Shown here one piece after another: positions 4,552 to 59,756 of a stretch of 64,000 nucleotides of DNA. The translations under genes were made by a program, and so were the position numbers. The stretch is from Mariniblastus sp. (GTDB lineage: Bacteria > Planctomycetota > Planctomycetia > Pirellulales > Pirellulaceae). The number at the start of each line of letters is the position of its first letter. The stretch's first letter is position 1. The notes below the pieces were generated by a model, which made no database searches, was not told the origin of the DNA, and worked only from the letters and a program-made list of their open reading frames with translations. The stretch is from assembly GCA_028823415.1 (NCBI GenBank), contig JAPKBL010000005.1, positions 1 to 64,000 of the forward strand, written 5' to 3'.

Positions 4552-4637
4552 GTTATGCTTTCTAGTGGGACAGCTTCCAGCCTGTCACGAACGGTTACAT
4601 CTGATTCCCAAGCGACGGGCTCGAAGCCTATCCCACG

Positions 4638-36284: not shown

Positions 36285-37310
36285 TTATTTTGGCATTGCC
36301 GCATTCGACTCGCCAGGCGCTGGCGGGGAACTTATTTTTAAATTGCGGTACCAGACTTCGGCACCGTGATCGGTAAGCATGATTCGGCCTTTTGCGTTGC
36401 GACCAAAATCAGGCACATCGTTAAATTTACTTTCAGCGACTCGTTTTTTCCATTCAGCGTTTCCAATGGTTGCCGAGGCAATTGGTTGTCCGTTTAGCCA
36501 ATGGTCAATTCGGTTGCCTCGAGCAACGATCCGGCTCGTATTGAACTGGCCAGCGGGATTGATTTTTCGATTGGGATGAGGTTCGAAAAGAGCGTAGATA
36601 GAACCTGTGTCTTTCTTACTTGGAGGTTGGCCCGTCTTTCCGGAATCAAAAATTTGATATTCGTAGCCCAGCATTTTGCGACCATATTTTCGGACGCGAT
36701 ACTTGATGCCACTATTGCCGCCTTTGGCAATTTTCCATTCAAATGAGAGGTCGAAATCACCGTATTGCTCGCGCGTGACGATGTTGCCAATTCGCTTTTT
36801 CCCTCGCTTGCGATGAATGGTTCCATTGTTCACCTCCCAACCGGAAGGGACAGGTTTGCCATTTTCAAGGCTCCAGTTGTCGAGCGATTTTCCGTCAAAA
36901 ATTTCAGACAACCGTTGAGCTGGTTCCTGTTGAATTTCTGTGATCAGGTTGGGGGCTTCAAGTTGGTTGTCGTGGTCATGGATTGTTGGGATTCCGGTGG
37001 TCAACAGTGTGTTGGCCATGCCTAGTCGCGCATCATCAATTCCAGTGGGTAATCTGGATCGAGAGGGCGTGCCGGTGCCGGATGCTGAATGAGCGTCCGT
37101 GAAACGGAATCCTACTTTGGCAGGCGCATTCACGTGAGGCTTCTTGATTTTGGACTGCGGATTAAAAGCCGTGCAATCGCCATAGCCAAGATCGTCGGCG
37201 AGAATTAAGACGATGTTGGGTTGATCAGCCAGGCTCGCGGCTGAAATAAAGCAAAAAGTGAGGAATAGGTAACTCACATTTGCGACTTGGCGTACGATCA
37301 TAGTTGCCAT
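36285..37310 (-). CDS. DUF1080 (3-keto-disaccharide hydrolase-like) protein with degenerate, truncated N-terminal sulfatase segment
   Basis: N-term QPNIVLILADDLGYGDCTAFNPQSKIKKPHVNAPAKVGFRFTDAHSASGTGTPSRSRLPTG, then DUF1080-like IFDGKSLDNWSLENGKPVPSGWEVNNGTIHRK...GNIVTREQYGDFDLSFEWKIAKGGNSGIKYRV. Confidence 0.88.
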   Translation of the reverse strand: MATMIVRQVANVSYLFLTFCFISAASLADQPNIVLILADDLGYGDCTAFNPQSKIKKPHVNAPAKVGFRFTDAHSASGTGTPSRSRLPTGIDDARLGMANTLLTTGIPTIHDHDNQLEAPNLITEIQQEPAQRLSEIFDGKSLDNWSLENGKPVPSGWEVNNGTIHRKRGKKRIGNIVTREQYGDFDLSFEWKIAKGGNSGIKYRVRKYGRKMLGYEYQIFDSGKTGQPPSKKDTGSIYALFEPHPNRKINPAGQFNTSRIVARGNRIDHWLNGQPIASATIGNAEWKKRVAESKFNDVPDFGRNAKGRIMLTDHGAEVWYRNLKISSPPAPGESNAAMPK

Positions 37311-37396
37311 ATTGTAAATCTTGCTGACTCGTCAAGGCAACTGAAATATAGAGTCTTTGTTGAATTGCGTACTTAAATTAAATGCAAGTTGATATT

Positions 37397-37979: not shown

Positions 37980-39962
37980 TTATTTGCGAAACTTACTTTG
38001 GGGAACCAGAAATCCTGCTCGGATGCTGACATTGCTAATGCTGCCGGGTTGCCCGTCGGGAAAGGAAATGTAGATGACATTGCGTGCTTTCAGGTCGGTT
38101 GGATCAAGGCGGATGATTTTGCAAGATTTGTATGCCTTGTCCGTCAGTCGGTTAGCGCATTTCTCTAATGGCACCTCGTACGGTTTTCCGTTGACGGTCA
38201 TGGAGATTTCTTTATCGAACTCGGGTGCGCGATTCACACCGATGCGTAAATTGGCATATTCAAGTTGATCTGCTTCTGGAATTTCAACCGTGAAAGCCCG
38301 CTTCCTTCCTTGGTCGAGATTTACGTCAAGGCGATTGCCATAACAGGGGATTTCGTTGATTCTTTGACGCGGTTCAATTGCTTTTGCGTAGGTTGATTTA
38401 ATGAGGACTGTCTCCCGCCCTTTAAATCGAAAGTCGTAGGATGCGTTTTTATGGAGGTTGTTGTTTGCTGTTTTGCTTCCGACGGGGCGTTTCGCTTCAG
38501 CTAGGTAGGGAGTGAAGTCAGCGTTGCGCCCAAGACGACGGACTTGCATTTCAATTGGGCGTGGCAGATTGATTGAAACAAATTTATTAGCGTTTGAGAG
38601 ATTGTTGAGAACGACAAAAACAGTATCGCCATCGACAAACGCTCGCGTTTGAATGTCGGGATCAGGGCATGAGGAAGTGATTCGGTTTCCACGTAAATCC
38701 CGGAACAGGCGATAGAACAAAATCTTTTTGCTGGGCAGCCAATCGGTTTTATCTGTGAAGTTTCGCGGAGTGTAAAGTGTGGCGTAGTACTTTGGGTCCC
38801 AGTTCATGCTCTCCAGCAGAATAAACGGAACTGCCTTCAATACCGTGTGCGGATGATCCATGAACACTAGCGTGTTTGCGATTGCGCTACTAACCATGTT
38901 GAAGTCGTCGATCGACCGTTTTTTCATTTCCCATTCGAATCCGGTTTCTTTAAATTGAGCATCAACGGCAAGTTGTTGAACTAATTCATTGCCACCGTAA
39001 CCACCGTGTTCGCTGACGACGATGTCAACCTCTTTTCCATAACTGTTAACGGTGTAGTTTTGGATTTGATCTAATAGTGATTCCAGTGGCAGGCCACTTT
39101 GAATCACTCCGCCAAAGTTACCATCTTTTTCACGGAGGAAGTCGTAAACATGGAATGAGTAAAAGTCCAATTTGCATTGGGTGTTGTCAATGAAGGGCTT
39201 GAGGTTCTTCTCCCAGATTGGAACGGCCAGGCAGGGGCCTCCCACCAGTACGCCGGGAACTTCCCGGTGGACCGTTTTCATCGTTGCCAGATGCCAGTTG
39301 GCTAAATGTTTACTTTGCAAATATGACCAGTGCGGTTCGTTGATTGGTTCATAGTATTTCGGTCGGTCGAAGTCGGTGAATCGATGGTGAAGCGCGAGTG
39401 CTGATAGTTCAGCCGCAGCTTCCATGTTTTTTGGAAGTCGCTGAGCGTGTTTGTCTTTTCGGGCAGATTCCGTTTGGTAGATGCCCATGAATTCGGGGAA
39501 TGCGTTTCGAAAGCCATGCGCTGCAATGTCCAGACGATTGTTCATGTCGTCTTTAAAATCGGCGCGAGATGGATTCGATGTCACTTTTTTGATTAGAAAT
39601 TCTTTGTCGACAAATCCACGGCGGCTCGGATCTTCGCGGATGGCCTTTTGATACTCGTCCAGCCCGTTGACCACTTGCAGCGTTCGCCCGAACGTGATTC
39701 CGTTGTTTTCGATTAGCCATTGGTAGCGAGCAGGTTTAATGCAGCGTTTTTTAAATTCGGAGCCCGGATCACAAATGCCGAAGTAGGCCTCGCGGTTAAG
39801 TTCGGTCGTTCCTTGAATACTTCGAATTGAAAAAGGATCAATCGAAATATCGACTTTGGGTTGAGTGCGAATGGGTTGGTTGGGTGGATTCTGGCCATTT
39901 GCCGAATGTTCCAGTAAACAACTCGCTAAAGCGATTGTAAAAATCAATTTAAGGTTATTCAT
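37980..39962 (-). CDS. Secreted glycoside hydrolase, beta-agarase/porphyranase-like (GH86-like)
   Basis: Likely start MNNLKLIFTIALASCLLEHSANGQ; clan GH-A-like acid/base region YYEPINEPHWSYLQ and nucleophile-like VVSEHGGYGGNE; C-terminal beta-sandwich-like domains. Family call from recall only. Confidence 0.62.
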   Translation of the reverse strand: MNNLKLIFTIALASCLLEHSANGQNPPNQPIRTQPKVDISIDPFSIRSIQGTTELNREAYFGICDPGSEFKKRCIKPARYQWLIENNGITFGRTLQVVNGLDEYQKAIREDPSRRGFVDKEFLIKKVTSNPSRADFKDDMNNRLDIAAHGFRNAFPEFMGIYQTESARKDKHAQRLPKNMEAAAELSALALHHRFTDFDRPKYYEPINEPHWSYLQSKHLANWHLATMKTVHREVPGVLVGGPCLAVPIWEKNLKPFIDNTQCKLDFYSFHVYDFLREKDGNFGGVIQSGLPLESLLDQIQNYTVNSYGKEVDIVVSEHGGYGGNELVQQLAVDAQFKETGFEWEMKKRSIDDFNMVSSAIANTLVFMDHPHTVLKAVPFILLESMNWDPKYYATLYTPRNFTDKTDWLPSKKILFYRLFRDLRGNRITSSCPDPDIQTRAFVDGDTVFVVLNNLSNANKFVSINLPRPIEMQVRRLGRNADFTPYLAEAKRPVGSKTANNNLHKNASYDFRFKGRETVLIKSTYAKAIEPRQRINEIPCYGNRLDVNLDQGRKRAFTVEIPEADQLEYANLRIGVNRAPEFDKEISMTVNGKPYEVPLEKCANRLTDKAYKSCKIIRLDPTDLKARNVIYISFPDGQPGSISNVSIRAGFLVPQSKFRK

Positions 39963-40356
39963 TGTTGGTGGCGGTAAGTTGCATCGGGTTAAAAAACAAA
40001 TCAAATGATAGCGAATGCTAATTTAGCGAATAAATAGGCTGGGGTGAACTAACGGAGTATCCATTTGAGCCTGCGACTTAGGATTAGGTTTGAGAAATTT
40101 CTACGCCCATTTTATATGAACCGAATGACGTGCTTTCTGAATGGTTTCTGTTCAAATAGCTTTAAGTTAGTAACTTTGATTGAGAGGGAATTTTGAATCA
40201 AATTTCTTTATTACAACAATCATTGACACAAATTATTGCAAGTTTTCATTTATAAAATTGTCCACGAAATCACCGCTTTCTGGTTTTATTGCAGAGGTGT
40301 ACGCACTGTCCTGCTTCGGACGATGTGATTTGTTGAAAAAAGAAACAGGAAAAGTG

Positions 40357-41369: not shown

Positions 41370-42860
41370 ATGAAACTTAATCCGATAGTTATCGCAGCAA
41401 TAAAGAAGCCACTCGCAGCCAAACTGGTGATCGTATTTGTCTTCGTTTTCATAGTTGCTTTTGAGCAAATTCATGCCGCCGACTCAATCGAAAATCCGAA
41501 CGTTTTATTCATCGCAGTCGATGACTTGAACGACTGGGTTGGCTGCCTCGGCGGACATCCCCAAGCGAAGACTCCCAACATCGACAAACTGGCTCGCAAG
41601 GGAATCCTCTTCGAGCAGGCCCATTGCGCTGCTCCTCTCTGCAGCCCCTCGCGTACCGCGATCATGATGGGGCTCCGTCCATCAACAACGGGTATTTACG
41701 GCAATCTGAATTGGTTTCGCGATATGCCAAAATACAAGGATTGGGTGACGTTGCCGCAATATTTCCGCAAGCATGGGTATCTCGCCTGGGGCGGCGGAAA
41801 ACTTTATCACCAGGCTCACGGTAAATTCTCCGATGCCGCCGCGTGGGATCATGTCTATTCAACTCGCACTGGTGCAGTCCCACCGCCGAAAGAGGACCGC
41901 TACAAGCACGGATTGCGCCCCAAGTTTGAATCCAATCCCATCCTCGCCCGACTCATCGACTGGGGGCCAACCGACGCCCCGATGGAAGCGAATCCCGATT
42001 GGAAGACCGCGGACGGCGCCGCTCAGTTTTTACAGCGAGATCATGACAAACCTTTCTTCCTTGGTTGTGGAATCTACCTGCCTCATCTTCCCTGGTATGC
42101 CCCTAAGAGGTTCTTCGACATGCATCCACTGGAAGAGATTGAACTTCCGCCATACAAGGCTGACGATTTCGATGACATCCCCGCGATTGGCCGGCGGATG
42201 GGCGAACGTCACATCAAGCACATTCGTGAAAGCGGCAAATGGAAGGAAGCTGTCCAAGGCTGCCTCGCAGCGGATTCGTTCGCTGATGCCTGCGTTGGCC
42301 ATGTTCTTGATACACTCGAAAAGAGTCGTTATCGAGACAACACAATTGTTGTCCTGTGGGGCGACCATGGTTACGACGTGGGCGAAAAGAAGATCGCCAA
42401 GTCGGCGCTCTGGGAGCAAACGACCCGGACACCGCTGATCATCTATGCACCGGGCAAGTTGTCGATCGGCACACCGGCCGGTGGAATGACTTGCGAGAGT
42501 CCGGTCAGCCTTGTCGATCTCTATCCGACGTTGCTAGATTTATGCGGCTTACCGAAAAACCCGAAGAACGAAGGGAGAAGCCTCGCCCCGTTGGTTCGTG
42601 AGCCGAAGGCCGACTGGCCGTATCCGGCAATCATAACGCACTCACCCCACTGGCTGGGTATTAACCACGCCGTTCGCTCACGTGAGTTTCACTACATTTG
42701 CTACAGCGACGGTGGCGAGGAACTTTACGACGTCCAAGCCGATCCACTTCAGAGGAAGAACGTCGCCGATGACCCGGCCCGCGCTTCCGTCAAGGCGGAA
42801 TTGAAAAAATGGCTCCCGCAGAAAAACTCGCCGCACTTCGGCGCACCTAATCGGAAATAA
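41370..42860 (+). CDS. Sulfatase (iduronate-2-sulfatase-like)
   Basis: NPNVLFIAVDDLNDWVGCLGGHPQAKTPNIDKLA; CSPSR-TAIMMGLRPSTTGIY; WGDHGYDVGEKK. Confidence 0.93.
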   Translation: MKLNPIVIAAIKKPLAAKLVIVFVFVFIVAFEQIHAADSIENPNVLFIAVDDLNDWVGCLGGHPQAKTPNIDKLARKGILFEQAHCAAPLCSPSRTAIMMGLRPSTTGIYGNLNWFRDMPKYKDWVTLPQYFRKHGYLAWGGGKLYHQAHGKFSDAAAWDHVYSTRTGAVPPPKEDRYKHGLRPKFESNPILARLIDWGPTDAPMEANPDWKTADGAAQFLQRDHDKPFFLGCGIYLPHLPWYAPKRFFDMHPLEEIELPPYKADDFDDIPAIGRRMGERHIKHIRESGKWKEAVQGCLAADSFADACVGHVLDTLEKSRYRDNTIVVLWGDHGYDVGEKKIAKSALWEQTTRTPLIIYAPGKLSIGTPAGGMTCESPVSLVDLYPTLLDLCGLPKNPKNEGRSLAPLVREPKADWPYPAIITHSPHWLGINHAVRSREFHYICYSDGGEELYDVQADPLQRKNVADDPARASVKAELKKWLPQKNSPHFGAPNRK

Positions 42861-42861
42861 C

Positions 42862-45336
42862 ATGAAACTCATCCTCACATTTTTTTTCTGCTTCCTGCTG
42901 GTTTGTCCCGGTTTTGCCAATGACAAACCGCCAAACGTCGTCACTCTACTTGTCGACGATCTTGGATACCGGGACATCGGCTGCTACGGCGGTCCCGTCA
43001 AGACCCCGGTCATCGACAAGTTGGCTGCCGAGGGCGTGCGCTTCACCGACTTCCACTCGGGAGCCGCCACCTGCTGCCCCTCGCGGGCCACCTTTCTGAC
43101 AGGCCGCCACCACTATCGCACCGGAGTCTACTCCGTCATCACCGAACGGCTTCACAAGATGCATCTCTTGAAGCGCGAAACAACCATCGCGGAGGTGCTC
43201 CGGGAAAACGGCTACGCCACCGCCCACTTCGGCAAGTGGCACCTCGGCATGCCCGTCCAGAATCGCGATAATCCCACCCCCGCCGATCATGGCTTCGACT
43301 ATTGGTTCGGACTCGTCAACGGCGCGGGACCCAGCCAGAAGAACCCCACCAACTTTCTGCGCAACGGCAAACGTGTTGGTAAAATGAATGGCTATTCCTG
43401 TCAGATCGTGGTCGATGAGGCTCTTGCCTGGCTCGATCAAAAGCGCGACGGCGACGAACCCTTCTTCCTCAATCTCTGGTTCAATGAACCGCACGACCCG
43501 ATCGCGGCGCCCGACGAGATCGTTTCTAAATATGGCGGGCTGAACGAACGGGAAGCCATCTACAGTGGCACCATCGACAATACAGATCGAGCCATCGGAC
43601 GCCTCGTCGCTAAGCTTGAGAAACTCGGTGAGCTGAACAACACCATCATCATCTACTCCTCCGACAACGGCAGTTACCTGCAAAAGCGAAATGGTGAACT
43701 GCGTGGAAAGAAAGGTTCGCTTTTCGAAGGCGGGCATCGCGTCCCCGGCATCATTCACTGGAAAGACGGGATCCCCGGCGGTAGGGTTGAGGACGAACCA
43801 GCTGGAGCCATCGACCTCCTTCCGACTCTCTGCGGGTTGATCGGCATCGACAAACCCGAGGGCGTCCGTCTTGACGGCTCTGACCTCGCGCCTCTACTCA
43901 CCAGATCAGGCAACTTCGAGCGGCATCAGCCGCTCTTTTGGATGAGTGGCGCGAACATGGTTCTGCGAATGGGTGACCACACGCTTTTCGCCTCCGGTAC
44001 TGCGAAATCTTCGATCGACTTCAAAACCGCCGATCGACTCATGAAGCAAATCAAAGAAGTCCTTGGCGATGATCTCGAAAAAGAGTTGGGCGGATTGGAT
44101 TTTCGCTCTCGCCTGTTCAACGGGAATTTCGCCAATCCCGAGGCTAATCGACTGAAGAATCAACACCGGGACTTGTACTACTTCAACGAAGCGTGGATCC
44201 CCGAACTCAAAAAGAGCGGGCTTGGCCGGGTTCAACTGTATGACCTTTCCAAGGATCCCAGTCAGAAAGATAATATTGCGCTGAAGCGTCCCGAACTCGT
44301 CGCCAGAATGAAAAAGCAGGCCGCTGCTATCCGCCGGAGTGTCATGGCCGAAGCTCCGGAATGGCTCACCCCAGAAGAACAGGCCGCCGTAATGAAGACC
44401 GGGGAAAACGGACCGCAACGGCCTGCCACCGGAGCACCCGACAACGATACCGCGAAGCTACTCGCCCGTATCGACAAGAATGACCTTCCAAAAGACTATG
44501 ACGTTAGCCGCCACCAGGCTTACGTCGACCGCGTTATGGCGGGTCTCAAACCGGAACAGCGTGCTCGGGTCGGCCAACTTTGGAAAGAGAAACGACGCCT
44601 GAGTCCTGAAATGAAGAACGTGGGGCAGTCCTTCGTTAGAATCCTCAATTATGTCGCCAATGGAGAGAAGGCGAATTCTTCGGCAGCGCCAAAGTCAGCT
44701 CTTTTGCCTGCTGAGAAGATCGAATTGCAACAGCGGACTGAAAAGGCCAGCATCGAAGAGAAAACTGGAATCCATCGGCTTTCGACAACCAAGCGTTCGA
44801 CGTATGACGCATTTTCGTATCTCAATCGAATTCCGGATACAGTTTACGAAGATGAAAGTGTAGAAGATTTTCTCGGCCGAATTTTTGGGCGCCTCGCAAA
44901 TCAAGAAGGGCGCATTTTATTAAAAGCTCCCACGGGAATGGACCGACTTGGATACGAAGGGCTAAAGACATTCTTGAATTATGATGGGACTGAAAGTGTC
45001 GGCAATTGTGCCGCCTGTCATACATTGCCGAATTTTACAGATGGCAAATCATACGTGACTCGCCATGGAACTGAGCCGAAGCCGACTCCCTCCCTGCGAA
45101 ATCCTGAGAAGCGAAAACTTGACTTACGTAGAATAGTGTTGCAAAAGATCGAGGCAGCAAAACAGAAACAGCAGGGTAAAGCGGATGATATTAGTGATGC
45201 CTATTTGGTGATGAAGCTGAGTGAGCAAGACGTCCCCGGCTTGGTCGCTTTTTTGAAACTGCTAGAAGATGAATCCGACAATCGGTTTCGACAATCGATC
45301 ATTGATGCGAAAGTACTTGATACGTCCGAAGATTAG
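42862..45336 (+). CDS. Sulfatase fused to a linker domain and a C-terminal c-type cytochrome-like domain
   Basis: N-term PPNVVTLLVDDLGYRDIGCYGGPVKTPVIDKLA, CCPSR-ATFLTG, YSSDNGS. C-term GNCAACHTLPNFTDGKSYVTRHGTEPKPTPSLRN (CXXCH at 45007-45021). Confidence 0.9.
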   Translation: MKLILTFFFCFLLVCPGFANDKPPNVVTLLVDDLGYRDIGCYGGPVKTPVIDKLAAEGVRFTDFHSGAATCCPSRATFLTGRHHYRTGVYSVITERLHKMHLLKRETTIAEVLRENGYATAHFGKWHLGMPVQNRDNPTPADHGFDYWFGLVNGAGPSQKNPTNFLRNGKRVGKMNGYSCQIVVDEALAWLDQKRDGDEPFFLNLWFNEPHDPIAAPDEIVSKYGGLNEREAIYSGTIDNTDRAIGRLVAKLEKLGELNNTIIIYSSDNGSYLQKRNGELRGKKGSLFEGGHRVPGIIHWKDGIPGGRVEDEPAGAIDLLPTLCGLIGIDKPEGVRLDGSDLAPLLTRSGNFERHQPLFWMSGANMVLRMGDHTLFASGTAKSSIDFKTADRLMKQIKEVLGDDLEKELGGLDFRSRLFNGNFANPEANRLKNQHRDLYYFNEAWIPELKKSGLGRVQLYDLSKDPSQKDNIALKRPELVARMKKQAAAIRRSVMAEAPEWLTPEEQAAVMKTGENGPQRPATGAPDNDTAKLLARIDKNDLPKDYDVSRHQAYVDRVMAGLKPEQRARVGQLWKEKRRLSPEMKNVGQSFVRILNYVANGEKANSSAAPKSALLPAEKIELQQRTEKASIEEKTGIHRLSTTKRSTYDAFSYLNRIPDTVYEDESVEDFLGRIFGRLANQEGRILLKAPTGMDRLGYEGLKTFLNYDGTESVGNCAACHTLPNFTDGKSYVTRHGTEPKPTPSLRNPEKRKLDLRRIVLQKIEAAKQKQQGKADDISDAYLVMKLSEQDVPGLVAFLKLLEDESDNRFRQSIIDAKVLDTSED

Positions 45337-45422
45337 AATTTGAGAGAATACTTGTCCACGATTGGAAGGTTGGCGAGGTTAAATAGAAGTCAGCGGTAAT
45401 CCGAGTGAACTAAGAGAATTTA

Positions 45423-47879
45423 ATGAGAAACGTTACTTTAGTTGCTTTGTTTTTTTGTCTTTTTTCCGGGCTTAACGGCGCCGTGGAGGCCGAGACAATT
45501 CGCGGAAAAGTCGTCGACCGGTTTGGCAGGCCTGTGGAAGGCGTCATGGTTTCTGCAATTGATGATGCACATCGAAAATGGACATCGGTCTTTTCACAGA
45601 AAGATGGTTCGTTTGAAATTGCTGATTTACGAAATGTTGATCACAATATTCGCACTCGATTGATGGGACTGGCAGATGAGTGGATCAGCGGAGTTGCGGC
45701 AGGCACCGAAGATATGGTGATCCAAACGCGTCCGGCTATCGGCGAAGAATTGGAATTGCAACGTCCGGCAAACAGTGCGTTCAGTATGCTCGATTTTGAT
45801 AATCCTCGGGACAAACTGAATTTCAAGATGATGTGCTCGTACTGCCATCAGGTAGGCACGCTTGGGTTTCGAACTCCTGAAAAACCAATTGACTGGGAAA
45901 CCATGTTGCGCCGGATGGACGGTTTTGGAGGTCTTTATCCACATACCCAGGACACCATCATCGGTCGATTGATGAATACTTATAAAGATGACGCGGTTGA
46001 TGATTGGCCAGCCTTCGTTCCTCCTCCGGCACCGACAGGGATGGCAGCGGCAGCAACGATCACGATGTGGGAAATGGACAAGCCTCTCGAAGGTTCATTC
46101 CATGACTTGGAAATAGGCCGTGATGGGAAGGTGTATGCAGTCAACATTAGCAGGCAGCGAATGATTGCGTTGGATCCCAAATCAGGCAAGCAAGACGTGA
46201 TTAAGTTTCCTGCGCGAGTGCACGCGCCCCATTCGATTGAAACCGCGAATGATGGAAGCCTATGGACGACAATGTGTGCCAGCGGAAAGATGGCTCGTTA
46301 CGACATTGAGACGGGAGAGTTTGAGGTCTACAGTAGTGCCGAGGCACCCAAGAAACGTGGTAATTATCCGCACACTCTGCGAATCAACCCGAAGGATCCT
46401 GAAGGCTTAATTTGGTACACCGATGCTGGATCGAATTCCTGTTTTTCACTCCATCCTGATACGCATGTCGTTAAGGAGTACAAATTGCTTAGTGCTGGGC
46501 AGGCGATCGGTGCTGGACGTGGAGAGTCGCGAGGGATCACGCCTTACGGGCTCGATTATTCACCAGTCGACGGCATGCTTTGGTATTCCAAACTCAATGG
46601 AAACCGGATCGGTCGAATCGATCCCAATGCGGAGGATGGTGATATTAAAGAATGGAACCCACCGTTTCGTGGACCGCGGCGTTTGCACGTTGCCCCTGAT
46701 GGAATGGTTTGGGTTCCCGGTTTTGGGTCGGGCGTGTTTGGTAAATTCGACCCCAATACTGAGTACTGGACTGTTTACGAATTGCCGGATTCTGAAAATC
46801 AAATTCCTTATGCTTTGAATGTCGACAAGGACGGAATCGTTTGGATTTGCGGTACGGGAAATGACACGATTAATCGGTTCGATCCTGTAACGGAGACATT
46901 CGTTGAGTTTCGATTACCGACACGTGTGTCTTATACACGCGAGATTGAATTTGGCGATGATGGCAGCATTTGGACGAGTACATCCGGGCCTGCGCGGCAT
47001 ATGGAGCGTGGCGTCGGGGCGGTGATTCGTATCTCGTTACCCGATGATTTGCCAGCCACGGGTGGTATTCGGTTAACACCAAAAGTTTATAAAGGCAATC
47101 ACGACATCGGCAATCTCGCCACCGCTCCAAAGGTGGAACGCAAAATGGCCCCCGAGCGAGAACAACTATACGCAAAAATCGACGCCAACCCGTTACCCGA
47201 TGCGTACAAAAAGATGCCTCACCAAAAGTGGGTCGACTCACGCCTGGCCGCCTTCCCAAAACACAAACGGAACCTCGCGGGTACGCTGTGGAACGAGTTT
47301 CGAAAGACTCATCCGGATCGCAGGAACGACGGGCAGTTCTATGTGAAGATCATCGACTACATCATCAACAACAACACGCCGGTAAAACGTCGCTTCGTGA
47401 AGAAGTGGCAACATCACTGGTTCGGCGACGCTCCGGATCGTCTGGGTAAACGAAATCTCGAACGAGGCCGCATGGTGTTCGAGCAGGCGACCTGCAGCCG
47501 CTGTCACAACATCGGGCCTGGCGAGAAGAAACTTGGGCCAGATCTAACCGAGGTTACGAAACGTTTTCGTGGATCAAAGCTATTGCAGCAAATCGTCAAG
47601 CCATCCGCTGAGATCCATAAGGATTTTCAAACTCAGATGATTCTTGGAGATGATGGTCGATTGAGGACAGGTTTAGTGGTCGAAGAAACCGAAGATGAAG
47701 TTGTCCTGATCCCCAATCTTTTGAAGCCCGACATTATCGAAAACATGAAGAAATCTTCGATTGAAGAACGTAATACGGCGGATGTTTCGACGATGCCTGC
47801 GGGATTACTGGATACTTTTTCGGTTGAAGAAATTCTTGATCTCGTCGCCTTCATTGAGTCCACTGGATCTGGCAATTGA
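45423..47879 (+). CDS. Carboxypeptidase-regulatory-like + streptogramin-lyase-like (Vgb) propeller + cytochrome c protein, two CXXCH motifs
   Basis: RGKVVDRFGRPVEGVMVSAIDD; CSYCH (45834-45848); repeated DGxxW propeller segments; CSRCH (47493-47507) followed by LGPDLTEVTKRFRGSKLLQQIVKPSAEIHKDF. Confidence 0.88.
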   Translation: MRNVTLVALFFCLFSGLNGAVEAETIRGKVVDRFGRPVEGVMVSAIDDAHRKWTSVFSQKDGSFEIADLRNVDHNIRTRLMGLADEWISGVAAGTEDMVIQTRPAIGEELELQRPANSAFSMLDFDNPRDKLNFKMMCSYCHQVGTLGFRTPEKPIDWETMLRRMDGFGGLYPHTQDTIIGRLMNTYKDDAVDDWPAFVPPPAPTGMAAAATITMWEMDKPLEGSFHDLEIGRDGKVYAVNISRQRMIALDPKSGKQDVIKFPARVHAPHSIETANDGSLWTTMCASGKMARYDIETGEFEVYSSAEAPKKRGNYPHTLRINPKDPEGLIWYTDAGSNSCFSLHPDTHVVKEYKLLSAGQAIGAGRGESRGITPYGLDYSPVDGMLWYSKLNGNRIGRIDPNAEDGDIKEWNPPFRGPRRLHVAPDGMVWVPGFGSGVFGKFDPNTEYWTVYELPDSENQIPYALNVDKDGIVWICGTGNDTINRFDPVTETFVEFRLPTRVSYTREIEFGDDGSIWTSTSGPARHMERGVGAVIRISLPDDLPATGGIRLTPKVYKGNHDIGNLATAPKVERKMAPEREQLYAKIDANPLPDAYKKMPHQKWVDSRLAAFPKHKRNLAGTLWNEFRKTHPDRRNDGQFYVKIIDYIINNNTPVKRRFVKKWQHHWFGDAPDRLGKRNLERGRMVFEQATCSRCHNIGPGEKKLGPDLTEVTKRFRGSKLLQQIVKPSAEIHKDFQTQMILGDDGRLRTGLVVEETEDEVVLIPNLLKPDIIENMKKSSIEERNTADVSTMPAGLLDTFSVEEILDLVAFIESTGSGN

Positions 47880-47984: not shown

Positions 47985-50900
47985 TCAATCGCTCAGGAAG
48001 CGTTTAGGAGGCTGTTCACCTTTCGGCACGATGCAAATCTCCCTTAAATCAATGAGACAATCATTAAGATGTCCCTCCGGACTCAACATGACACGTTGCA
48101 CTCCGGTCTTCAAATCTATCGTGCCGATCAATTTTTGCCGGTATTGGTCCCAAGTGCCCGTCGATTCGACATTTGAAATTATTTCAGCATTACCAAGCTC
48201 AAGGCGGTAAGAATTGTTTGCTGCCGATTTGGCAACCGCCCAGTCGAGATAGATATCATATTTGCCGGCAGCAACGATCTCCACTTTCCATTCCGCACGA
48301 TCATCTTCGCTCTGCCAAAATCCAAGGTTCCCATACCCTTGTTCATAAACAAGCGTTGGGCCGTAGACGAACGCCCGTGACGCGCGCAACCGCAGAACAC
48401 CTGACCCCTCCTCGGGTAACACCAATTGCGGTTGATTACCTTCGAATTGTTTGGGTGGCTGTCTCCGCTCAATAATATAGGCCACCAAATCGGCAAGCGC
48501 CTGTGGGTCGAGCGATGTTTCCAAACCCTGCGGCATCATTGATAAGGAGCTTCGGCGAAATCCTTCTTCTTCAATATCCTTTTTAAGCAAGGTATAGACT
48601 TCTGAATTTTGCCCTAACAGCGTGACGCTAGTGGAAGTTTCCTGCTGTAACAAGCCGGTGAATTGCCGCCCATCGGTCATAAGCACGATGTAATTATGAT
48701 ATTTATCCTCCACAGACCGCGCCGAATCAAGAATGTGGGTGGTCAGGAATTTGGGTGAAAGATCGGCCAATGCTGCAAGGTCGGGGCCAACCGCATGTCC
48801 CTGGCCAGCCAAACGGTGGCATTGAGAACACGTTTTTTCGAAATGGTGCTGGCCCTTGCCGGAGATTCCCCCTCGCCGAACGGCGGGAAGATAACGGTCA
48901 ATCACAATCTGGCGTTCAATATTATGCTGGCGTTTTAGGAGTTGGCCAGCTCGGTCGGACAAGTCAGTATTCGGATGAGCCATCAACACCTGCGAATATG
49001 CAAGATTGATGTCGGTTGGTTGTATTGTCCCCTTTTCCACCGAGTCCAAAAGCACGCGCGTGCTGACCGGCCTTTGCAAATAAAGCCCCACCAAGCGATC
49101 TCGCGTCAACGGGCCGTACTGTGGCCAACCCCCTAACACTTTTTCCAAAGGCCTGGTTTCGTTTACCCGGCCAATGCCTTGCAGCACAGATTGTTGCAAA
49201 TCGCGTGGCGTCTGTGGTAACAGAAGCGACATCGCCAAACCGATATCGTTGGTTGCAAAATCAGGGTCACAACTTAACAGGTTCAATGCCGCCGCCCTAA
49301 AATTTTGTGGCGTTTGGGGATCGATCAAGCAATCCCTCGCATGTATCCTCAAATCAGAAATCCATTGTCTTTTTTGGTCATCTAGGGTCAGCAAATCTAC
49401 CGATTGTCCATTTTCCCGCAAAACCTGATCGATATCGGCCAGCGCATTCATTTGCCAAATTTCATATTCCCCGGACCCATTTTTCATCAACAGAGCCAAT
49501 ATCCCAACAACTGAATCGAGATCTCCCAACCCAAGTGATGTGCGGATTAATGATTGCAGCGGTAAACTTTTGGCTTCTAAAATACCCTCTGTTTCGATGA
49601 CGCCAGCGAGAACATCGGCAGGCCGACTTTGGATGCTGCTAAGCGCTGCGGCGACAATATGGATATCCCCAGGGTGTTTGGCCAGAATTTTTCCGATTGT
49701 ATTTCTCGCGATTGGATGATCCATTTCTCCAAGTGAACAGGCGAGTTGTAAGACAACCTGAGGCTCTTGTTCCACTTCTTCCAGTCGCGCCAAAGCTTTG
49801 ACTATCGATTCCAGGATTTGGGGCCCAACGGCCTCGTGACTCCGCAGCAGTGTTGCATCCTCTGTCTTGTTCGTCATTCGATCCGAATTGATGAATTGTT
49901 CCGCAATACGCACAGAGTGGCGACGGACAGCCGGATGAGAATCGAGCAACCCTTCTAAAATTTGTTCCATCGCGACCGTTTCGCGACCCGCTAGAACACA
50001 AAGAGCCGCCAACCGCTGGCATGGAATTTGACTTGTAGTAAATGTGATCGCCAAACTTTTGTCGACCGCTGGATCCTTTTGCCACAGCAAAAGCCTGTGT
50101 GCAATATCTCGCTTTGTTCCGTTGGAATCGCCCAACTGATCAATCAATTGCCGTACTGAATACTTGGTCATATCGGAAATCGGCTTTGGTTTTTGTTGGC
50201 GAGGAACGATTCGATAAATGCGGCCAAGTTGGTGTCCCTCCCGCAGATCTAAACTCTTTTCAAGAACATCATCAATCCATTCGGGATGTTCAATGACCGG
50301 ACGATACATGTCGGTAATCCACAAACAACCATCTGGCCCGGTCCTTAAGGTGGTGGGGCGGAACCAGGAATCATTGCTTCGCAAAAATTCCGTATTGGTC
50401 TCGTTGGGCGGTTTCCGCGTGCTTTTTCGAACGCCGTCTTTCTTTACCACCCTTCTGTGAATGAGGTTGTGAACCGGTTCGCTGACGAACAGGTTTCCCG
50501 TGAGTGACTCCCCTAGAAAGTTGTCGCGATAAACCATTGTTCCACAGGCCGACGTGAATTGACTCGTCTGGCCCGCTGCCGGTGATTGATAACCGCTATA
50601 ATGACTAAGGATGCGACTAGCGGGAAAAAGCCCCCACTGGCCACCTCGATCGATGTGCCGCAGACTCGGCGACGTGACAAATGGATTGCGCTGCAGGTAG
50701 TGTTCATCCAGTACATACTGCATCATGGGGACGCTATTACTCGATCCCCACCAGTTTCCCCAACTGTCACGGCAACGTCCATGTTGCGTTTGCCCTGTTG
50801 TCGCCTCAATGCGGCCAGTGTCGGGCTTGATTCGCACGTCTCTCCCTTGGATATCTACCGTTTCATCGGTCTTAACAGAATGAATTTTGCCACCACTATC

Positions 50901-53222
50901 TCCATTGGCTAGGTAGACCCAATTGTCGAGTCCCCATCGCAATCCATTGACTCGATGCTGCTGATTTCCTTCGACAAATCCTGTGAACCAAGATTCGCGC
51001 AGGTCCGCACGCCCATCACCGTCGGTATCTTCGAGATACCAGACATGAGGAGCTGCCGTAATGAGCACACCGTTTCGCCAAACCATCAAATCGGTTGGGA
51101 AATTGAGCCCCTCTGCAAAGAGACTGCTGCGATCATATCGCCCATCTCCGTTGCTGTCTTCGAGAATCCGAACACGACCACCCGGCTTCCCTTTTCCGTC
51201 AACACCCAGAGGATAGTCCGCCATTTCAACGACCCAGAGGCGACCATCTGCCCCCCAATCGATCGCAACCGGGTCTTGTACCATCGGTTCAGCCGCCACC
51301 AGTTCGACTCGGAATTCGGGTGCTACCTCAATTGATCGGCGCGAAGCCTCGGGTGTTCGCGGCTCCAAGGCCTGGTCTCCCATCAAATCGGAAAAGGAAC
51401 GTCGCTCGACCAAGTCCGGCATCTGGCTGGTCGCTTCATTTTGCCACCAAACATGATTCCGGGAGACCCATGCACCATTGTTAGTTCCATTAATTACGAT
51501 AGGAGGTATGGCGCTGGAATCTGCCTGACGACCTTGCTGTGCCACACGACTCCACCCTTGCTCAAGAGAAGAGAACAAATGCAGTGAAAAATCTTTTTCA
51601 TTTGAAAAAAGGACGTCGAGATGTCCATCCTGATCGACATCGACAAATCGCATCCCGGCATCCTTGCCATTGGCATCGACCAACTCCGTCGTGGCGGGAA
51701 GACCAAACGGAAGGGGCTTCCATGTGTTTCCCTCTCGATCCCAAGACAGCACTTGGCCAGGCTTATTGCCGGCGATCAACTCACACACTCCATCATTGTC
51801 GAGATCTCTTAACCGAACACCCAGGTCACGGCCATTACGGGCCGTGAATATTGGTTTGTCATCAAGCACCAGGCCATTGAGCATGGTTGTATCTTGATTC
51901 CATTTCCCATTGGAAAAATGCCAGATACCTGCCTGCTGTTCGTTGCGGACCAATAGACTCGCATTGCCATTTTTTTGAGCAATGAAGAATTCAACACCGG
52001 CCGGTCGTGTGAGCCCGTCTGCATCGGCTCGGACAATCTGAACGGGAAAATCCGATTCGTGCCATTTCTCAGTCTCGGGATCCCATAAACGTGTTCGTTG
52101 CAGTTCCGAATTTCCAATCACAACATCGAGAAACCCATCGTTATTCAGATCGATCAAACGGACACCATTGTCTCGACCTGCGTCATCCCGCAAAGGTTGT
52201 CCAGCGAGTAGATGGTTTTCCAGACGTTGTTGATATTCGTGAAAATTCAGAAACTTGATCCGATTGCCATGTTCTTCGATGGCATGATCGATGAACTCGA
52301 TGATCTGGTCACTACTAATCCAGCCATGTGGATGAAAGACCAGAGACGTCGCCCCCTGTTTTAAAACGGTCGCATCGAGCGCAATTTTCATGTCTGCCAG
52401 AGTGCGGGGATTGTACGACTGTTGTACGTTTTGACCTTCCCAATCACTTGGGACGAGACAGGGGACTTCCCAGCACAGCCGACCGATTACGTAGGGATAC
52501 GGATAATCATCGATCGTATTTAGGTACGATGGGAAAGGAAGATAATGTCGAAAACGCGATTTGCCATCGGGTCGTGTTGCGATGTTGTCGGGCAAACTCG
52601 GATCGTCTGCAGAGAAGACGTGAAATACCGAGCTATCCATTCTGAGGAAATTACCCTCAGGTGTAGTTCGATTAAACACCTCCATCCAAAATCGTGGACT
52701 CGTCGAATTGATGGAATCACAACACGGCATCCGAAAAGCGATTGGCGAATTATTTGGAATATTCGCCATCAAGTCGACGCAACGTTCATAAGTACTGCGG
52801 GCGGTATCAAAGCTACGGTCGCGCAAGCATGGGCATGGATGGTCGATCGTGTGAACATCAAGGCTAAGACCCTGTTTGAGCCACGTCTGCAATTGCGGAT
52901 CATCGGCGTGGATAGAATTCGTCAAAATACTCAACGGCATCCGGCCATCGATCTCTGCCAAGCGATTGAGAATCGGACGCAAGAATGTTTCATAACGCGC
53001 CGTATCACGCATGTCGTCGATCGATAACACGATCACTCCTTGGACACCTTTTTCGCCCACCCACTGAGGCGTCACCAATTTGGGGAAATTACGATGAACG
53101 TAGAAAGGATCGCAGGGGTCCGAGAGATAGGCCAACCGATTTCCATCGCCTCTGACTGGCGAGAACAAAATTCCGACAACCAGGCTGGTTGAAATAACGA
53201 GCTTTGCAAAAATCTTTAACAT
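47985..53222 (-). CDS. 1745-aa secreted multidomain protein: polysaccharide-deacetylase-like + FG-GAP/VCBS + PVC-type membrane-bound dehydrogenase propeller + HEAT-like + cytochrome c + CBM-like
   Basis: VIVLSIDDMRDT with HTIDHP (deacetylase-like); DLNNDGFLDVVIGN repeats; RVRILEDSNGDGRYDRSSLFAEGLNFPTDLMVW; CSQCH (48816-48830) GPDLAALADLSPKFLTTHILDSARSVEDKY; C-term YDIYLDWAVAKSAANNSYRLELGN. Confidence 0.88.
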   Translation of the reverse strand: MLKIFAKLVISTSLVVGILFSPVRGDGNRLAYLSDPCDPFYVHRNFPKLVTPQWVGEKGVQGVIVLSIDDMRDTARYETFLRPILNRLAEIDGRMPLSILTNSIHADDPQLQTWLKQGLSLDVHTIDHPCPCLRDRSFDTARSTYERCVDLMANIPNNSPIAFRMPCCDSINSTSPRFWMEVFNRTTPEGNFLRMDSSVFHVFSADDPSLPDNIATRPDGKSRFRHYLPFPSYLNTIDDYPYPYVIGRLCWEVPCLVPSDWEGQNVQQSYNPRTLADMKIALDATVLKQGATSLVFHPHGWISSDQIIEFIDHAIEEHGNRIKFLNFHEYQQRLENHLLAGQPLRDDAGRDNGVRLIDLNNDGFLDVVIGNSELQRTRLWDPETEKWHESDFPVQIVRADADGLTRPAGVEFFIAQKNGNASLLVRNEQQAGIWHFSNGKWNQDTTMLNGLVLDDKPIFTARNGRDLGVRLRDLDNDGVCELIAGNKPGQVLSWDREGNTWKPLPFGLPATTELVDANGKDAGMRFVDVDQDGHLDVLFSNEKDFSLHLFSSLEQGWSRVAQQGRQADSSAIPPIVINGTNNGAWVSRNHVWWQNEATSQMPDLVERRSFSDLMGDQALEPRTPEASRRSIEVAPEFRVELVAAEPMVQDPVAIDWGADGRLWVVEMADYPLGVDGKGKPGGRVRILEDSNGDGRYDRSSLFAEGLNFPTDLMVWRNGVLITAAPHVWYLEDTDGDGRADLRESWFTGFVEGNQQHRVNGLRWGLDNWVYLANGDSGGKIHSVKTDETVDIQGRDVRIKPDTGRIEATTGQTQHGRCRDSWGNWWGSSNSVPMMQYVLDEHYLQRNPFVTSPSLRHIDRGGQWGLFPASRILSHYSGYQSPAAGQTSQFTSACGTMVYRDNFLGESLTGNLFVSEPVHNLIHRRVVKKDGVRKSTRKPPNETNTEFLRSNDSWFRPTTLRTGPDGCLWITDMYRPVIEHPEWIDDVLEKSLDLREGHQLGRIYRIVPRQQKPKPISDMTKYSVRQLIDQLGDSNGTKRDIAHRLLLWQKDPAVDKSLAITFTTSQIPCQRLAALCVLAGRETVAMEQILEGLLDSHPAVRRHSVRIAEQFINSDRMTNKTEDATLLRSHEAVGPQILESIVKALARLEEVEQEPQVVLQLACSLGEMDHPIARNTIGKILAKHPGDIHIVAAALSSIQSRPADVLAGVIETEGILEAKSLPLQSLIRTSLGLGDLDSVVGILALLMKNGSGEYEIWQMNALADIDQVLRENGQSVDLLTLDDQKRQWISDLRIHARDCLIDPQTPQNFRAAALNLLSCDPDFATNDIGLAMSLLLPQTPRDLQQSVLQGIGRVNETRPLEKVLGGWPQYGPLTRDRLVGLYLQRPVSTRVLLDSVEKGTIQPTDINLAYSQVLMAHPNTDLSDRAGQLLKRQHNIERQIVIDRYLPAVRRGGISGKGQHHFEKTCSQCHRLAGQGHAVGPDLAALADLSPKFLTTHILDSARSVEDKYHNYIVLMTDGRQFTGLLQQETSTSVTLLGQNSEVYTLLKKDIEEEGFRRSSLSMMPQGLETSLDPQALADLVAYIIERRQPPKQFEGNQPQLVLPEEGSGVLRLRASRAFVYGPTLVYEQGYGNLGFWQSEDDRAEWKVEIVAAGKYDIYLDWAVAKSAANNSYRLELGNAEIISNVESTGTWDQYRQKLIGTIDLKTGVQRVMLSPEGHLNDCLIDLREICIVPKGEQPPKRFLSD

Positions 53223-54286: not shown

Positions 54287-57200
54287 TCATTGCTTGCCTT
54301 TCTTACCGCATTCCCAGAGCCGAACCGAATCAAACACGATTTGGCAATCCGAGCCTCCCTTAAGGGAGAATCTTGGTCCGTTTTTATCATTTTCGTTGAC
54401 GACGGTGACCGTCTCGTGTTCGTAGGTTTTACTGCAACCGTTAACGCTCACTCTGATCGTCCCTTTCTTGTACTCGATGATTAGGTCGATCCACTCGTTG
54501 AGCTTCATGTCCGACTCAGGTTCGGTGTAAGTGGGGCCATCTGGCAGTTTGATTCGATGTCCCCCGCCTTCAAGGTAACTGAGAACGATCATGTGGTGGC
54601 CAATTTGAAAACTGGGACGACCCGGGGTGAGATCCTTCTTTTCAAATTTGTACCGCATGTGGCAGACAAACTGTTCGGGAATGCGATTGAGATGTACGAC
54701 CGGCTCCAGTCCTAGGTGGTGGTCACGCTTCAGCGCCGCGATGGCTTCTTCTTGGGATGTGAATAAGGAAGTCACGATCAGTTTACCATCCTTGATCGAT
54801 TTGTCCTTTTTAGGAAATCCAAAACGTTGTTGGTTAAACTCCCCATCAAAATCGTCGGAATAAACTAGCGTTCCAGTTTTAAACAGTTCTGACTCGAACT
54901 TCGACTGTTTGTCGCCAGGAGAATTTTTTGTCGCGGAAGTTTTTGTCTGAAACGCTTTGCTTTGAACGAGGGCATGAATAAATTCGCTGAGTGAGAACCG
55001 TTTGGTTTTGGCTGATCCGACAATTCCGTCCGCGAGATGTTCATCGGAGAACCCAAAGGGACGACCTAGTCCGTATTCGATCAGGTGCTCGGTGAGTCCC
55101 CGGGCGAAGTCTCCCTCGCGCTCGGTGATCAGATCGCGGAGTTCGTGATAGTCGCTGAAGTTTGGGCCTTTGTGGAATGCTCCTGAGGCGTCGATGGTCC
55201 AAGTCTTCCCCTGCTTCCCTTTGCCTCCGGCATGGTCCGTGGTGCGCCACTTACCAGCGGCGTTGAAGTTCTCCAGTCCGAAACCGATCGGATCGATCTT
55301 GCGGTGGCAACTTGCGCACTGGGCTTCTTCTTGGTGGGCGAGCAGGCGTTCGCGCGTGGTGAGTACCTGGTCATTCAGCCGAGAGATCTGGGGAACATTT
55401 GGCGGCGCTGGTGGCGGCGGATCGTTCAAGAGATGGCGCAGGACCCAGGCTCCACGTTCGATCGGGCTGCTATCGATGCCGTCACTGCCCATGGCGTGGA
55501 TAGCGGCCATACCGAGTAATCCGCCCCGAGGCGAATCGGCGGGCAGTTTGATTTTTTGGAACCTGTCGCCAGAAACACCTTCGATACCGTAGTAGGTGGC
55601 GAGCAGGCCGTTAACGAACACGTAGTCGCTCTTCAAGAGTTTCCCGATGCGACCGTCTTTTGAATCGCGTAGCAGGTGGGCGAACGACTGATAAACCTCT
55701 TCGCGCGTGGCTGCTCTGGTGCTTTCATCAAAATCTCGATGAAGGTTGACGTCAAACTGAAAGAAATCGAGTCGTTCCATGTCGAGCCACTGATGGACGA
55801 ATCCGGAGACGAATTCATCCGAACGCGGATCGGCAATCATTCGATCAACCTGCTGCCGAAGCGTTTCTTGGAGGTGTAGTGTGTTCTGCTCTGCGAGCTT
55901 GAGCAGTTCTGCGTCTGGTGGCCCGCTCCAGAGGAAGTAGGCCAAGCGCACGGCCAATTCTCGATCAGAGAGTTGGCGCGACCCAACCGCGTTGCTGGGT
56001 TCATTGAGGTAGAGGAAGCTAGGTGATGCGAGAATGATGCTGAGTGGCATACGAATTGCAGTCTCGAATGAGTCACCGGACTCTCGACGCGCGGCGAAGA
56101 TGTCAGTGAGGCGATCGATAAACTCGACCTCTGCTTCGACACCGCGGAAGGCTTTGAAAGCGAACTGTTGCAGGATCTCGCGTGCCCGGGAGGAATCGTC
56201 GGGATCGATGGCATCGTCGGGATCGATGATCCACCAGTCGTTCCTGCGAGTATCATTATTGGACGCATTCAGCGGTCCTTCGAGTTCCACCCAGTCGATC
56301 CAGATTGCCGGTGGATGTCCGTAGCCGTTTTCGTTCTTCAGATTGTTGTGCGCATCCCAAAGCGCTTTGAGATTTCCGTTGTTGGGCTGTTTCTCCTGAA
56401 CTGCGAATTCGCGAATCGTATTGGCGGTGACCTCGAGTGGAATCTCGATCGTTTCGGGATTGTCGATGGTGCCGGTGACTTGATGAGTACTGATGGCTCG
56501 GCCTTCGAGTCCCCAGTTTCTGCTTTCAATCTGGCGTTGAGGAGGTCCCACCTGAATGAAACGTCGCTCGGCAGGAGTGCCTTCAACAGCCCCGACACGC
56601 ACACGCATGATATAGCTGCCGGGCGTTAGTTCCTTTTTCTTGGCAGGAACGATGATTCGACCGGTGCCATGAGCAAGCTTTAGGTAGGTGCCGCGGTCGC
56701 GATGTGGCAGGCCGACGTAGTGCTTGTGAAGAGCTAGACTTCGGCTTCGTGAAGGATCAGATGCGGCAGCTTTTTTCGCGTCGCTAAACCCGAACTCCCT
56801 TGGATTGGGAGTATCTTTTAACCGGTCGGCAAAAGTATAAAATCGGTTAGGGTGATCGATCAGGCGATCCGTCTTTCGAATCTTGGCAATGATCGCTTGA
56901 TTCTCAGCGGTCTTGGCTGCCTCATCGACTCCTTTCTTCCACAGCCCGAATCGTTTCTGACGCTCTTCGGTCTGCGCGATTTCTTTCTCGTTCGCCGGAT
57001 TGATTGTCTTCTCAGGCTCAACGCGAACAATTCTGGATTCAGTGTCCGCAGTCTCACTGATTGGCCCGGTCAGCTCAATCCAGTCGACCCAAATTGCGGG
57101 AGGAGTGCCGTAGCCGTTCCTCTGCTTGTATATGGAGAATTCATTTCTGAGAATTCTTTTACTATCTTCGGGTTGGCGTTCCCGAATCCCCAGTTCGCGT

Positions 57201-58450: not shown

Positions 58451-59736
58451 GCCTGTAACTCCTTCACGATGCCGGTGCTGTCGCCGTGTCGCGGAGCGTC
58501 GATCCCTATTCCTTGTAGCATCGTTAACCACACGTTGCACAGTGGCGTGTCTTTTGGCACGACAAGATGCTGGCCCAGTTTCAACTTAGCACCACCACCG
58601 GTAAGGATGGTCGGGCAATTGGTGAGGTAATGAATGGAGCTGATGTTCGATCCGAAAGCCACAGCGGTATGGTCGAAGAGACTCGATCCGTCGGCTTCTT
58701 TGGTTGCCTTGAGTTTGTCGATCAGGCGGGCTAAAAGTTCGCTGTGAGTTTTGTCGCGTAACTTGGATGCATCCATGCGAGCCCCGGGGGAATAGTGGCT
58801 CACATTGTGCGCGCTTGGTTTGAGATCGAGACTTTGCAGTAGATTCTGACCGGGCATACGATAGGTTAGTGAACGCGTGCTGTCTGTCTGCAACGCCGCA
58901 ACGATGAGATCCTGCATGATCTCGATCTCAGCCTTTCCCTTAAGACCAGGCGCTGGAGCTTCGAGGGGAGCCTTGACCTTGGGAACGTCGAGCCAGTCTT
59001 CGTCCTTTTTCAGACGATTTTCGATGTCTCGAATTCCCTGAAAGTATTCGTCGAGCTTTCCCGTGTCGGTTTTAGAGAGGCCTCGCTGAACGCCTTTGGC
59101 CTGGCTGAGAACCGCGTCCAGGACGCTGCGATTTTCGGCGATCGCAGCCTGGCGTTGTTCCAGTGGGAGGTCGTCGGCGGAGAAGAGTTTGTGAAATACT
59201 TGCACCGGATCGTCCTGGCCGGCGACTGGCTTGCCGCGCTGATCCCAAGCCAGGGAAAGCCCGGGGCCGTGACCCTGAAGATCGGAACCATTGAGTTGAA
59301 TCGAAGAGAATCGAGTATCTTTGCCTAACTGCTCAGCGATGATCTGGTCGACGGAGATGCTGTTGGCCATGTTCTGGCCGGGCACCGAATAGCGATTTGC
59401 TCCGGTAAGCCAAAAGGTGCTACCCCAATGCGCTTCGTTGGCGAATTGATTTGAGCATCCCTGCACGACGGTGATATCGGCCTGGTGTCGGGCAAGTGGA
59501 GCGAGTCCTTCAGATAGTTGGTAGTTCGCTCCCGTTTGATTGATATCGGGATACCACGTCTCTTTGGTCACGCCAAATCCAATACCGAGAAAAACGCTGC
59601 GTTTAGGCGGGGTGGCAGGTGTCGCACTCGCAGCCGAAGCAAATCGGCGAAAGCCGACAGATTCCAGCGCAGGCAGCGCGATTAGCGCACCGGTACCGCG
59701 TAAAAAGTGACGGCGATCTAAGTTGGTTTTCATCAT
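58447..59736 (-). CDS. DUF1552 domain-containing protein (Tat signal)
   Basis: LDRRHFLRGTGALIALPALES; GWDQRGKPVAG-type region; VAFGSNISSIHYLTNCPTILTGGG; paired with the PSD1 gene. Confidence 0.93.
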   Translation of the reverse strand: MMKTNLDRRHFLRGTGALIALPALESVGFRRFASAASATPATPPKRSVFLGIGFGVTKETWYPDINQTGANYQLSEGLAPLARHQADITVVQGCSNQFANEAHWGSTFWLTGANRYSVPGQNMANSISVDQIIAEQLGKDTRFSSIQLNGSDLQGHGPGLSLAWDQRGKPVAGQDDPVQVFHKLFSADDLPLEQRQAAIAENRSVLDAVLSQAKGVQRGLSKTDTGKLDEYFQGIRDIENRLKKDEDWLDVPKVKAPLEAPAPGLKGKAEIEIMQDLIVAALQTDSTRSLTYRMPGQNLLQSLDLKPSAHNVSHYSPGARMDASKLRDKTHSELLARLIDKLKATKEADGSSLFDHTAVAFGSNISSIHYLTNCPTILTGGGAKLKLGQHLVVPKDTPLCNVWLTMLQGIGIDAPRHGDSTGIVKELQA

Positions 59737-59756
59737 TTTGAACTTTGGAAAATGAG

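Follow-up and report, generated by a model that had tools for sequence, protein, structure and literature searches.

A small helical domain shared by a sulfatase-cytochrome protein and a haem-propeller protein of Mariniblastus sp.

Results

Domain organization of the two proteins

The stretch analysed (the window) comprises 64,000 nucleotides of DNA from Mariniblastus sp. Two adjacent genes in it encode a sulfatase-cytochrome protein and a haem protein with a Vgb-like propeller, which share a module labelled MOD in this analysis. The features of this region are the following.

41370 to 42860, forward strand: second sulfatase (SULF2), upstream neighbour of the MOD sulfatase (open reading frame; domain searches)
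42862 to 45336, forward strand: sulfatase-MOD-cytochrome protein, 824 amino acids (open reading frame; Pfam Sulfatase, Cytochrom_C E 9.1e-5)
42931 to 43848, forward strand: sulfatase catalytic domain, PF00884 (Pfam, E 1.2e-67 to 8.7e-67)
44458 to 44661, forward strand: MOD copy 1, predicted four-helix module (whole-genome profile E 3.5e-35; AlphaFold2 pLDDT 94.4)
44737 to 45327, forward strand: sulfatase-associated cytochrome c region (SCYT), CXXCH at 45007-45021 (Pfam and phmmer probes)
45423 to 47879, forward strand: CarboxypepD_reg - haem - Vgb-like propeller - MOD - haem protein, 818 amino acids (open reading frame; Vgb_lyase E 2.9e-25)
45495 to 45698, forward strand: CarboxypepD_reg domain, PF13620 (Pfam E 7.1e-8)
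45747 to 46022, forward strand: upstream haem-binding region (NHEM), CSYCH at 45834-45848 (phmmer probes)
46023 to 47117, forward strand: Vgb-like beta-propeller (Pfam; phmmer probes; structure model)
47166 to 47372, forward strand: MOD copy 2 (profile E 5.3e-29; helical segment in the full-length model)
47418 to 47876, forward strand: downstream haem-binding domain (HEM2, TIGR02603), CSRCH at 47493-47507 (NCBIfam E 2.4e-26)

Domain searches confirmed for both proteins the predicted order of an unrelated domain, the module and a CXXCH domain. The N-terminus of the sulfatase protein, as judged by eye, is hydrophobic and signal-peptide-like, and in some relatives SULF2 and the MOD sulfatase are fused into one protein. 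Besides the CXXCH following MOD, the propeller protein has an extra one ahead of the propeller (45834-45848), and a CXXCH between CarboxypepD_reg and the propeller is present in every homologue whose frame covers that part. The model of the propeller matched virginiamycin B lyase structures (E 5e-18, TM 0.89 to the target; PF24684; PDB 2z2o, 2qc5). The fold is the same, but identity is only about 20%, the window propeller sits between haem regions, and the comparison concerns the host and not MOD. The propeller core is strikingly conserved, being 78-86% identical to that of the window in the tested genomes of the window's family and 61-75% identical beyond it. The domain following MOD copy 2 is the putative haem-binding domain TIGR02603; MOD lies outside this domain and is often found where it is absent. 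A reverse-strand gene (47985-53222), convergent to that of the propeller protein, encodes 1745 residues in which FG-GAP repeats and DUF7133 are combined with a cytochrome c domain; HEM2 and the haem domain of this protein are related (E 2.5e-12).

The two segments belong to one domain family

The original prediction rested on a gapless alignment of the segments encoded at 44458-44670 and 47166-47378 (forward strand) with 27 identities in 71 positions. The translations proved identical letter for letter and the recount gave the same number. When the segments were compared with each other by BLASTP, 58.9 bits and E 9e-19 were obtained (single comparison). Their local score was 138, whereas 5000 shuffles of the second segment gave a mean of 23.3 (sd 4.3) and a maximum of 47. 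A profile built from sulfatase-borne copies alone recovered 37 of 37 propeller-borne copies (E 2e-20 for the window propeller copy), and a profile built from propeller-borne copies alone recovered 34 of 34 sulfatase-borne copies (E 6e-32 for the window sulfatase copy). Judged by these sequence comparisons, the two segments are homologous copies of one domain family, and chance is ruled out. MOD is about 68 residues long, slightly shorter than the approximately 71 residues assumed originally. Whole-genome profile search detected no third copy in the source genome, in which MOD is attached to one of the 133 sulfatase-domain matches (E <= 1e-20).

Predicted fold and relation to known families

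The AlphaFold2 model of MOD (29 sequences, 69 residues, mean pLDDT 94.4, pTM 0.82) predicts with high confidence a compact domain of four helices, formed by residues 2-6, 16-29, 32-48 and 55-67. The best-conserved positions among 80 copies were L1, I5, P11, Y14, H19, Q20, V23, D24, L41, W42, P50, G56, F/Y59, R/K61 and I62.

No Pfam-A or NCBIfam model matched either window copy above its curated cut-off, in keeping with the view of MOD as uncharacterised, and Pfam searches with 47 members gave scattered low scores without any consistent match. Metal_resist, DUF6845 and MHB haemophore were rejected as identities of MOD, since each was a weak Pfam hit below the cut-off in at most 5 of the 47 members. 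The best hit of the Foldseek search of the PDB had E 3.1, and no hit was significant (TM <=0.47); no fold match was found in a library of viral structure models. The PDB sequence search revealed no chain resembling MOD; its best hit (E 0.073) covered a small part of intraflagellar transport protein 74. One sequence, L037, had entered the first iterated profile before curation and matched P0002 with E 3.9e-4, which would imply homology of MOD to the last strand of a GH10-like enzyme. With the curated profile its domain E was only 0.08, and a helix is not compatible with a strand of a barrel; the match was treated as chance. No description of MOD was found in the literature, in which coverage of subscription journals was thin. 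As far as the Pfam-A, NCBIfam and PDB libraries show, MOD is a previously undescribed domain family.

Host proteins and the connection with haem domains

Hosts were tallied for 80 non-redundant copies, with host families assigned by Pfam and domains by phmmer probes derived from these proteins. Propeller-borne MOD was followed by a haem domain in 27 copies, by the protein end in 8 and by a cytochrome-like part in 2. In sulfatases MOD was followed by the protein end (13), PQQ (7), cytochrome (6), a second sulfatase (5), PSCyt (1) or SASA (1). The other hosts were 3-keto-disaccharide hydrolases (L140, and L162 with an esterase), a GFO/IDH C-terminal domain (L163) and PQQ_2 propellers (L091, L135). 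Thus, PQQ propellers, a second sulfatase, PSCyt/PSD, esterase and SASA domains can follow MOD, and MOD itself is nearly always located directly behind the core domain of the host. The GFO/IDH gene of L163 has an in-frame TAG (1081-1083) between its Rossmann part and the C-terminal part bearing MOD, reflecting either a pseudogene or an assembly or sequencing error.

The original prediction viewed MOD as a connector or docking domain joining polysaccharide-processing enzymes to haem domains. The carriers are indeed proteins of polysaccharide clusters, and docking is still the leading reading; it is the joining to haem domains that did not stand. A dedicated haem connector would describe both window proteins, the 27 propeller copies in which HEM2 directly follows MOD, and the 41 of 80 copies that have a CXXCH downstream. 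However, the expected co-occurrence partly fails: 39 copies lack a downstream CXXCH, 10 having one upstream only and 29 having none in the open frame, although contig ends cut some of the frames. These 10 and 29 copies also do not fit an N-terminal extension of cytochrome c, for which attachment to CXXCH would be obligatory. Moreover, MOD-less fusions of the same sulfatase family to the same cytochrome are common (L138, L150, L155, L156, L160, L172, L174) and adjoin propeller-MOD-haem genes, and in L089 a second MOD copy is located behind a cytochrome-like segment. As a general role of MOD the haem connector is contradicted by this tally, and we consider it highly improbable.

MOD is a tethered accessory domain

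Short linkers with many Pro, Ser, Ala and Thr residues precede MOD in the sulfatases. The full-length model of the propeller protein (9 sequences) had a mean pLDDT of only 67 with the MOD helices kept, and pLDDT fell below 50 at residues 541-553, before MOD, and 630-715, after MOD, of the modelled chain. The latter stretch is weaker evidence for a linker because it includes part of the downstream haem domain. On a tree of 51 sulfatase cores, from which two rows cut by contig ends were left out for this count, the presence of MOD needed 5 changes, at least 3 of them forced by well-supported branches. Among propeller proteins, a paralogue in L187 ends without it. These data describe a tethered accessory domain whose gain or loss is independent of the host.

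Mean pairwise identity in sulfatases was 65% for MOD and 69% for the catalytic core, whereas in propeller proteins MOD was much less conserved than the core (48% versus 77%). Sharing a genome did not make MOD copies more alike than those borne by the same host in other genomes. A passive folding or spacing domain, which would stabilise or position the preceding core, could account for the location of MOD straight after the core and for the way its copies track the host family. It seems quite improbable, since close relatives of both the sulfatase and the propeller lack MOD, the linkers ahead of it speak against packing on the core, and MOD is highly conserved on sulfatases.

In a redundant set, in which related proteins recur, MOD exceeded the host core in basic charge in 33 of the 34 sulfatases and in all 52 propellers. 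Expressed as charges per 100 residues, the values were +8.1 for MOD and -0.3 for the core in sulfatases, and +5.1 and -2.3, respectively, in propellers. Positions 35, 37, 46, 47 and 61 are often basic.

Distribution and gene neighbourhood

Of 242 genomes from the window's family, 41 carried MOD in profile searches (29 of 160 among those of good quality), as did 7 of 393 genomes across its phylum and 2 of 291 in a second phylum sample built around the genome of the Verrucomicrobia record L006; these numbers are lower bounds, as the large searches scored only the best first-look candidates. MOD was also present in 19 loci whose records bear the names of Planctomycetota or Verrucomicrobiota members. 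Verrucomicrobial sequences were nested among those of planctomycetes in the sulfatase tree, which suggests horizontal transfer. A plasmid search with P0001 revealed no plasmid-borne copies. Up to three MOD proteins occur in one genome (G928, G058, G259), and several genomes have a single one (for example G029, which is 99% complete, G026, G039, G921 and G929).

Neighbours on the same strand within 8 kb were counted for 19 propeller-MOD genes flanked by at least 6 kb on each side. They were a sulfatase (19; the two sulfatase probes cross-detect, so that SULF2 counts are not independent), the sulfatase-associated cytochrome (16), PSCyt/PSD (15), DUF1552 (15), PQQ propeller (14), FecR-like (10) and ECF sigma (9). 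A frequent gene order was ECF sigma, FecR, sulfatase, propeller-MOD, PSCyt, DUF1552, PQQ. The PQQ propeller, found near 14 of the 19 genes, was rejected as a universal partner of MOD, and no neighbour is universal; G730, for instance, lacks any homologue of the propeller although it has a MOD sulfatase. Upstream of the MOD cluster of L143, a forward-strand gene (1825-5166) encodes a protein that combines a YNCE/lactonase-like propeller with ankyrin repeats and a di-haem peroxidase domain of the MauG type. The PSCyt gene of the window is located apart from the MOD genes and on the opposite strand, while its relatives elsewhere usually adjoin them:

54290 to 58585, reverse strand: PSCyt1/PSD2-5/PSCyt3 protein (domain searches)
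58450 to 59814, reverse strand: DUF1552 (HXXSHH) protein, the usual neighbour of the PSCyt gene (E 8.1e-71)

ECF and FecR-like genes of the window are located between 7.5 and 9.6 kb, and a further sigma gene lies at 60.7 kb.

PSD2-5, PSCyt1 and PSCyt3 have been described as lineage-restricted accessory domains of planctomycete and verrucomicrobial proteins encoded near sulfatase genes, and the function of planctomycete-type cytochrome/PSD genes beside sulfatases was stated to be unknown (PMC5615132). These domains are the nearest precedent for MOD, and PSCyt genes neighbour most propeller-MOD genes. MOD differs from them in having no CXXCH and in being carried by sulfatases, propellers and other hosts; neither the window copies nor the 47 members matched PF07624, PF07626, PF07627, PF07631, PF07635 or PF07637. 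We rate MOD as a new domain family of an already known kind, the lineage-specific accessory domains of exported enzymes.

The window also encodes a 3-keto-disaccharide hydrolase, a GFO/IDH oxidoreductase and many sulfatases. One reverse-strand frame (36288-37331) combines the N-terminal part of a sulfatase (38-120, E 3.9e-7) with a complete 3-keto-disaccharide hydrolase domain (143-333, E 2.1e-47) and is either a relic fusion or an assembly join. A porphyranase beta-sandwich domain (PF18206, E 2.9e-11) is part of the protein encoded by a reverse-strand gene at 37983-40022. Together with the sulfatases and the other enzymes this gene makes a sulfated red-algal galactan, of the porphyran or agar type, a plausible substrate of the cluster.

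Such a substrate, together with the strongly basic charge of MOD relative to its hosts, brings to mind a small, helical carbohydrate-binding module that would hold exported enzymes on the sulfated polysaccharide. Most hosts are carbohydrate-active or encoded in sulfatase clusters, and the linkers resemble those of tethered binding modules. On the other hand, most known carbohydrate-binding modules are beta-sandwich folds, MOD has few conserved aromatic residues, and it was found on just one of the many sulfatases of the source genome. The basic charge alone is suggestive of membership among carbohydrate-binding modules, and we regard glycan binding as a serious alternative to docking, if on balance the less likely one.

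Discussion

MOD appears to fold on its own, is reused on linked proteins, is tethered, and in sulfatases is conserved nearly to the level of the catalytic core. Its simplest role is therefore recognition. Docking to a protein is favoured over glycan binding because of the redox and propeller proteins among the hosts and because of the all-helical fold. We tentatively propose that MOD is most likely a protein-docking tag. In the proposed mechanism the autonomously folding domain of about 68 residues would be appended via flexible linkers C-terminal to enzyme or propeller domains, which are probably exported, judging from their N-termini and domain types. The hosts would constitute one functional cluster of Planctomycetota and Verrucomicrobiota. 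The same small basic helical domain on different proteins would bind one common surface, probably acidic, on a protein of the cluster such as a c-type cytochrome or a propeller partner. The activities of the sulfatase, the haem-propeller protein and related hosts could then work side by side. Both the binding to a protein and the identity of this protein are what we infer.

Several observations are consistent with docking. One family occurs on unrelated hosts (sulfatase, Vgb-like propeller, 3keto-disac_hyd with or without esterase, GFO/IDH, PQQ_2), up to three times in a genome. Its fold is confidently predicted to be autonomous, with linkers before it in the sulfatases and low-confidence flanks in the propeller protein. 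It is gained and lost as a module on the sulfatase tree and is missing from the propeller paralogue. A conserved gene cluster surrounds the propeller-MOD genes, and MOD is more basic than the host core. Against docking stand the genomes with a single MOD protein, the lack of a universal neighbour, the finding that copies within a genome do not resemble each other more closely, the low conservation of propeller-borne copies relative to the core, and the basic charge, which would suit glycan binding equally well. Since several near-complete genomes carry one copy only, a mechanism needing two different MOD proteins is excluded, and mutual pairing of the two window modules was rejected as a required mechanism.

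A functional analogy may be drawn with the dockerins of cellulosomes, in which one small tethered domain is likewise common to different polysaccharide enzymes. A dockerin consists of a duplicated calcium-binding loop-helix motif of about 22 residues and binds a cohesin on a scaffold protein. MOD differs in having no fold match in the PDB; the dockerin Pfam family gave no match in 47 members, the MOD alignment contained no repeated calcium-loop motif of the dockerin type, and no scaffold protein was found among the annotated neighbours of MOD genes. It is conceivable, though rather doubtful, that MOD provides the docking function in an exported assembly of several enzymes, hitherto undescribed, in the PVC superphylum. 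Such an assembly would couple desulfation of algal polysaccharides to haem- and propeller-based redox chemistry and would have evolved independently of cohesin-dockerin systems.

Across two phyla, MOD flags those cluster proteins that probably cooperate or share a substrate. The domain is small, confidently predicted and easy to express, which may permit a direct attack on the function of these clusters. Should MOD be a docking tag, its partner would reveal what the complex is built around; should it bind glycans, it would be an all-helical binder of sulfated polysaccharide.
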